Part shown: positions 17,361 to 18,429 of the stretch, one piece after another
How the letters are laid out: the number at the start of each line of letters is the position of its first letter
Numbering within the stretch: position 1 is the first letter of the stretch
Assembly (NCBI GenBank): GCA_013349825.1
Contig: DUYW01000013.1
Coordinates: 1 to 37,607, forward strand
DNA from: Gammaproteobacteria bacterium
GTDB taxonomy: Bacteria; Pseudomonadota; Gammaproteobacteria; GCF-002020875
Reading direction: 5' to 3'
DNA length: 37,607 nt
Notes under the pieces: generated by a model
Seen by the model: the letters and a program-made list of their open reading frames with translations, nothing else
Databases searched by the model: none
Told to the model about the DNA's origin: nothing
Position numbers and translations under genes: made by a program

Positions 17361-17775
17361 GTGACTGACTCAACAAACTTCAACTTTCTGAACCCGTACA
17401 ACCCTGTTTTTCTGCAGCTGGCCACTGCTGCTGAGCAGGCCTTTATCAGCGACCCCAACACCACACTGATCAAACTACGCCAACTTGCTGAGGCACTGGC
17501 ACAAGACCTTGCCGCACGTACAGGTATTGAATTTGATGAATCGACCACACAGGCAGATCTGCTCTGGAGACTGAACCGAGAGATTCATCTTGATCCGACC
17601 ATTCGTGATCTCTTCCACACCATCCGCATTGATGGCAATAAGGCCACACACCAGTTTCAAACCCGGCCCTTTCACTCCCCCCAAAGATCCAAGTCATCAG
17701 CTACAGGCACTACAGACCGAAATTGAACAGCTCAAGGGGCAGCTCTCTGAGCCAACCGCTCTCTTGCTCCAATGA
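17361..17775 (+). pseudogene. 5' remnant of a type I restriction HsdR / DUF4145 helicase gene
   Basis: From GTG at 17361 the first 98 or so codons encode a DUF4145-like N-terminal domain (NTTLIKLRQLAEALAQDLAA, RDLFHTIRIDGNKATHQFQT) as found at the start of HsdR-type subunits. At about 17655-17660 (TTTCAA) the frame breaks. The next frame continues with FKPGPFTPPKDPS and a coiled-coil LQALQTEIEQLKGQLSE, which in intact homologues follows after a stretch missing here. So an internal deletion with frameshift is combined with loss of the whole helicase/nuclease part. The 3' end runs into the antisense end of higA. Confidence 0.7.
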
Positions 17776-18051
17776 TTTGAACTCCTCTTCACGTGCGATC
17801 GCTTCGCGATACTGCACTTCACGGTTCAACCAGAAACGGGCACTACTCCCCAATACCCGCTCCAGAATGATAGCGGTCTCTTCTGCAATAGTGGCCTTAC
17901 CGTTGATCAGCTGGCTGATATGTTTTGTGGAGAACTCAGTACGTTGTGCGAGCTCTACCTGACTCCACCCCTTCTCTTCCAACAGATCAAAAATGGTGTC
18001 TCCAGGCGGGGAGACCCAGTCAGGCTGAAAGGTGTTTGTTAGTTCAGTCAT
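17710..18051 (-). pseudogene. higA: Truncated HigA-type antitoxin (HTH part)
   Basis: About 113 residues from the ATG at 18051 (GGAGA ribosome site; a TTG four codons earlier is less likely). The HTH (WSQVELAQRTEFSTKHISQL) and FWLNREVQYREAIAREEE are typical of the long HigA antitoxins that carry a C-terminal ImmA/IrrE-like domain. Here the protein stops soon after WLRELPL, where it meets the antisense hsdR remnant, so the C-terminal domain is lost. The DNA-binding half is intact and could still repress. The start overlaps the stop of the HigB-derived ORF by 8 nt, the normal higBA order. Confidence 0.7.
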
Positions 18052-18256
18052 GATAGTCTCCAATGTAGATGATGCGTACTTTTGTTACTCGCAACCAGTT
18101 GATACCACCCTCATCATGGCAAGGCACAGGGATATTGGCAGGCTCAAAGACCAAGCGTATTCCACCGTGCAGGCTGACTGCATATTGACGAGGCCAGCCT
18201 TTTTTGCGCACTTCAACGTAATATTGCTGCTTTCCGCGCTTTCGAATCGTTGCCAT
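18044..18256 (-). pseudogene. Chimeric ORF: integrase N-terminus fused to HigB toxin C-terminus
   Basis: 70 residues. Positions 1-24 (MATIRKRGKQQYYVEVRKKG plus WPRQ) are the standard start of a tyrosine site-specific integrase. From residue 25 the protein reads YAVSLHGGIRLVFEPANIPV with VTKVRIIYIGDYH, the C-terminal half of a HigB/RelE-type toxin. A deletion has joined the two genes in frame. The ribosome site (GAGGGG) is that of the integrase gene. It lies 88 nt from the 3' end of tRNA-Leu, where an island integrase belongs. The HigB half lacks its N-terminal helices, so toxicity is doubtful. Confidence 0.7.
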
Positions 18257-18344
18257 TTCATTCCCCTCAAAACAGACACTGCGTCAACAGCGCGTAAAAC
18301 AATCACACAAAACAGTGTAACATTCTGTTTTTTAAGAGTCAAAA

Positions 18345-18429
18345 TGGTGCGAGCGGAGAGACTCGAACTCTCACACCTTGCGGCACCAGAACCTAAATCT
18401 GGCGTGTCTACCAATTCCACCACGCTCGC
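18345..18429 (-). tRNA. tRNA-Leu (anticodon TAG)
   Basis: 85 nt including the encoded CCA. Acceptor arms are GCGAGCG and CGCTCGC; the anticodon stem CCAGA/TCTGG holds loop TTTAGGT; the long variable arm and GTTCGAGTC T-loop are present. It begins 1 nt after the stop codon of the upstream membrane-protein gene, so it is probably released from that mRNA or has a promoter inside the gene. Its 3' end is the presumed attachment site of the eroded island at lower coordinates. Confidence 0.95.

Follow-up and report, generated by a model that had tools for sequence, protein, structure and literature searches.

Tyrosine-integrase islands resident at tRNA genes place the integrase gene beside the tRNA 3' end, HigBA toxin-antitoxin modules with a long HigA (an HTH domain combined with an IrrE/Peptidase_M78 domain) encode the toxin first, in overlapping frames, and HsdR proteins of the PRK11448 type possess an N-terminal DUF4145 region. 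All three can be recognized in truncated form between positions 17361 and 18429 of the 37,607-nucleotide stretch analyzed here (contig DUYW01000013.1 of the gammaproteobacterial assembly GCA_013349825.1), to which we refer as the window. As in tRNA-borne islands, an integrase start follows the tRNA 3' end after 88 bp, and its N-terminal sequence is of the type present in intact integrases adjoining tRNA-Val, -Pro, -Arg, -Met, and -Leu genes; in contrast to these, the integrase is cut to about 24 residues and a distal att copy was not found. The toxin-first gene order and the overlapping frames are those of long-HigA HigBA modules, with which the surviving HigA shares 53-73% and the HigB part up to 72% identity, whereas HigB is devoid of its first ~60% and HigA of its last two thirds. 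The DUF4145 region of the hsdR remnant is 64-69% identical to that of the closest intact HsdR proteins; unlike these, it has suffered a 95-bp deletion and a frameshift, and the nuclease and helicase domains are lost. This locus is very probably what has been left of the integrase end of an island at the 3' end of a tRNA-Leu(TAG) gene, eroded by at least three deletions.

The intact tRNA-Leu gene (anticodon TAG; 18345..18429, minus strand; detected by ARAGORN and by Rfam RF00005 with 57 bits) is the presumed attachment site. It is adjoined by a 70-residue open reading frame (18044-18256, minus strand), hereafter the chimera, in which the N-terminal ~22-24 codons of an integrase (18185..18256) continue in frame into the C-terminal 46-48 codons and the stop codon of a HigB toxin (18044..18187). 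The start of a HigA-like frame on the same strand (ATG at 18051, stop at 17710) overlaps the end of the chimera, and its first ~106 codons (17734..18051) encode the HTH domain. On the plus strand, an hsdR-like frame extends from 17361 to 17726, and a second frame is open until 17775. The coordinates given by an earlier sequence-only reading of this DNA proved correct, and alignments with intact integrase, higBA, and hsdR loci confirmed each of the truncations that it had proposed.

Since its pieces are short, the chimera found no match in either Pfam (even at an E value of 10) or NCBIfam, and its identity was resolved by a purpose-built profile. This profile was constructed from 12 integrase N-termini and searched against all six translated frames of the window; its single match was the chimera itself (E 2.9e-8, profile positions 1-24; next best E 1.4), in which integrase homology ends at the joint. 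When the first 24 residues were used as a query against 369 genomes of the class, the matches were mostly weak. Better matches that lie in long open frames proved to be integrases, as a rule closely preceded by a tRNA gene, and the phage integrase domain (PF00589) is present in all six intact homologues tested. A tRNA gene lies 73-140 bp upstream in nine of the 12 profile integrases, to be compared with the 88 bp that separate the start codon of the chimera from the tRNA-Leu 3' end. Judged by its profile match, the beginning of the chimera (~22-24 residues) is the N-terminus of a tRNA-adjacent type of tyrosine integrase. The 24-residue integrase start proposed earlier therefore needs only a small correction, in that the integrase/HigB joint can be placed no more precisely than codons 22-25. 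In other genomes, two integrase starts located near tRNA-Val genes (L055 and L062) stay open for 14 codons and then run into a stop; decay of this kind at tRNA genes may be common.

The remainder of the chimera corresponds to the last 46-48 residues of HigB, in frame, as had been read from the letters alone. It begins at QYAVSLHGG, which the alignment places five residues beyond an HPLKG motif; the corresponding segment of the Proteus vulgaris HigB structure aligns with a weak score and has the same motif. In the P. vulgaris toxin, K57 contacts the A-site codon (PMC9098466). The HPLKG segment containing this active-site lysine is missing from the remnant together with the first ~60% of higB, so that a complete RelE-like HigB toxin is absent. 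Without its N-terminal helices and the active-site segment, the HigB remnant is very likely inactive.

The same integrase-HigB fusion was found in no other genome, be it among the 369 genomes of the class, in 84,980 species genomes scanned with short peptide patterns, on plasmids, or in phages. Apart from the window, the 369 genomes contain 16 matches to the 70-residue query, 15 of which start at residues 22-26; the sole earlier-starting match (in G114, from residue 6) is weak, with 36% identity, and belongs to a 111-aa open frame. Where the flanks of the matches were read, they consist of a HigB gene followed by higA. The scan of the 84,980 species genomes, from which distant relatives would escape, returned four loci, all of them matching residues 24-70 (or 24-69) only. 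Plasmids contributed two HigB-type matches and phages none. Because the fusion did not turn up in unrelated genomes either, the reading of the 70-residue frame as a chimera stands, and we consider it to be a private deletion joint rather than a member of a gene family.

Does this debris derive from one element? An alternative view holds that higBA and hsdR entered a defence hotspot on separate occasions, that the integrase start stems from yet another element, and that the three never formed one island. The varied neighbors in the window (a PDC-M06 pair, a YjjJ-type HipA, and an AAA ATPase) speak for it, as does the DNA between 5.7 and 18.3 kb, which is variable in the genus. This variable stretch is bordered by genus-conserved flanks (core left of ~5.7 kb; the tRNA and NnrS genes onward on the right), as expected for an insertion hotspot. 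Intact neighborhoods of both kinds exist elsewhere, however: one locus (L070) possesses an intact integrase gene directly upstream of hsdR, and another (L098:710-6444) carries higBA within an apparent type I restriction operon, with two hsdM-like genes before and an hsdS-like gene after it, as judged by eye. We therefore regard separate arrivals as unlikely. That all three genes came from one island is likely from their position and is the simplest reading. The G+C content of the remnant (48-52%) is the same as that of the core, and base composition gives no mark of the remnants.

The integrase gene next to the tRNA 3' end is represented by its N-terminus only, and the 15-50 bp copy of the tRNA-Leu 3' end that the sequence-only reading had suggested looking for did not turn up: no second copy was detected in the window, where the best match has 15 of 20 bases, or in the genome (24-mer with up to three mismatches). 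We therefore term the locus a remnant and not an island; the distal att copy may have been lost along with the rest. Two att candidates at 13741 (plus strand) and 3181 (minus strand), each with 15 of 20 bases, were treated as chance matches, and a further one (13740-13767, 75% identity over 28 nt) is situated inside the AAA ATPase gene. An empty site in the genus was also sought. In G004 and G005 the tRNA-Leu gene lies in another context; in G003 the order of NnrS and tRNA-Leu is the same, and no empty site can be read there since the contig ends inside the tRNA gene (L101:6428-6544). The contig break in G003 possibly reflects a site that differs between cells of the population.

HigA was said to have survived with its HTH half and without its C-terminal domain, and this is what we observed. 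Homology covers residues 1-113 of a 359-aa HigA (72% identity) with none beyond; it stops at ~106-113, and the frame continues to its stop codon through antisense hsdR sequence. Intact relatives comprise 359-374 aa, and the one tested contains a Peptidase_M78/IrrE-type domain. What is missing here is thus the ~250-residue remainder with this domain, while the HTH third is kept: HTH_3 scores 40.8 bits, above its cut-off, and TIGR02607 scores 46.4 bits, slightly below its cut-off of 47.7. Since solved HigA antitoxins are short HTH proteins (~94-138 aa), the truncated protein could have retained its fold and DNA binding, and it may still be made by translation following that of the chimera, whose frame overlaps its start.

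From here it is a further step to a 113-aa HTH-only HigA that was kept because it works, as a stand-alone regulator of its own promoter or as an anti-addiction antitoxin neutralizing incoming HigB toxins after its own toxin had been gutted, with the chimera as a translated leader. In accord with this idea, the frame is open across ~106 homologous codons, the identity of 53-73% to intact HigAs is about equal to that among the latter outside one close group, the size is ordinary for a solved HigA antitoxin, and the overlap with the preceding frame is as in intact higBA. Recent truncation would explain the same data, however, and the only indication of a promoter is a 9-of-12 match at 18342-18314. 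Furthermore, synonymous sites are saturated, so that dN/dS does not reveal selection on HigA, including any exerted after truncation. A truncated HigA that represses its promoter or neutralizes incoming toxins is in our view improbable, and its retention for such a role after the loss of the toxin marginally more so. In viral contigs, no HigA was found.

Returning to the eroded island, the hsdR remnant preserves its second and third joints. An intact 1,164-aa HsdR matches the plus strand in two frames, first at 17367-17669 (residues 10-110, 68% identity) and then at 17647-17766 (residues 135-174, 55% identity). The first frame (DUF4145 region, 17361..17669) is also recognized by PRK11448 (103 bits) and as REase_I by PADLOC; in the second (17647..17766), seen as well in a codon-level view, homology is clear to ~17745. 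HsdR residues 111-134 are absent and 23 bp are common to both matches, which amounts to a deletion of 95 bp (72 + 23) and a frameshift. The sequence-only reading had proposed both events, and any alignment to intact HsdR requires the gap and the change of frame. At the joint (17653..17669), the codon-level view shows that TTTCAAACCCGG fits both the upstream FQTR and the downstream FKPG, a microhomology of ~12 bp that would provide a simple mechanism for the deletion.

Beyond residue ~174 of 1,164, HsdR is absent; intact relatives carry the domains HSDR_N, ResIII, and EcoEI_R_C, and neither a nuclease nor a helicase domain is left at this locus. At 17731..17745, the alignments to intact HigA and HsdR show the two genes meeting tail to tail at their truncated ends. 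Because both genes are without their C-terminal parts at this joint, a single deletion would most simply have removed the two ends and the DNA between them. Searches of the bacterium's own genome with intact HsdR, HigA, and integrase recovered the remnants and otherwise only weak matches resembling those given by generic helicases, HTH proteins, and recombinases. The missing portions are hence found nowhere else in this assembly, which is 98% complete in 274 contigs and from which a small part could be missing; this indicates that they were deleted and not moved. That the joints are mis-joins, as a draft of 274 contigs and the ~12-bp microhomology at one of them might suggest, is highly improbable, since 12 bp is below the usual assembly overlap, three such joints would be needed in 700 bp, and the removed portions should then occur elsewhere in the assembly. 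The integrase and HsdR are dead.

The decay of the island may be reconstructed as follows. One deletion would have removed the greater part of the integrase gene together with the initial ~60% of higB, so that what remained of both became joined in frame; another would have taken the final two thirds of higA and ~85% of hsdR from its end, along with any DNA between them; and yet another, at the short repeat, 95 bp of hsdR. A toxin that is intact but lacks a working antitoxin would be selected against, and higB was therefore presumably destroyed before, or together with, the damage to higA. Of the step-wise decay that had been read from three joints in 700 bp, the number of events, at least three, stands; their succession does not follow from a single genome.

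The phenomenon is ordinary, a new instance of a known process, the erosion of DNA by deletion, and the locus does not overturn known biology. It offers a compact and well-resolved decay record of a tRNA-linked island, in which toxin and integrase are gone and the HTH part of the antitoxin is open, and part of its value is that one deletion occurred on clear microhomology. Annotators should be aware that the 70-aa open reading frame marks a deletion joint; it does not define a gene family.

Directly preceding the hsdR remnant, two adjacent genes (16519-17348) match both parts of the candidate phage-defence pair PDC-M06 (PADLOC; A 153 bits, B 242 bits), which appears to be complete; we found no paper on PDC-M06 under that name. 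In a relative (L016), this pair likewise occurs, close to a TatD-like gene. At 14597-15931 lies a full-length gene of the HipA family, YjjJ type, for which NF007297 scores 422 bits, above the cut-off. A stretch of ~31-57 bp at 7662-7718 recurs with 91-94% identity on many contigs of another member of the genus (G002) and is probably a small dispersed repeat.
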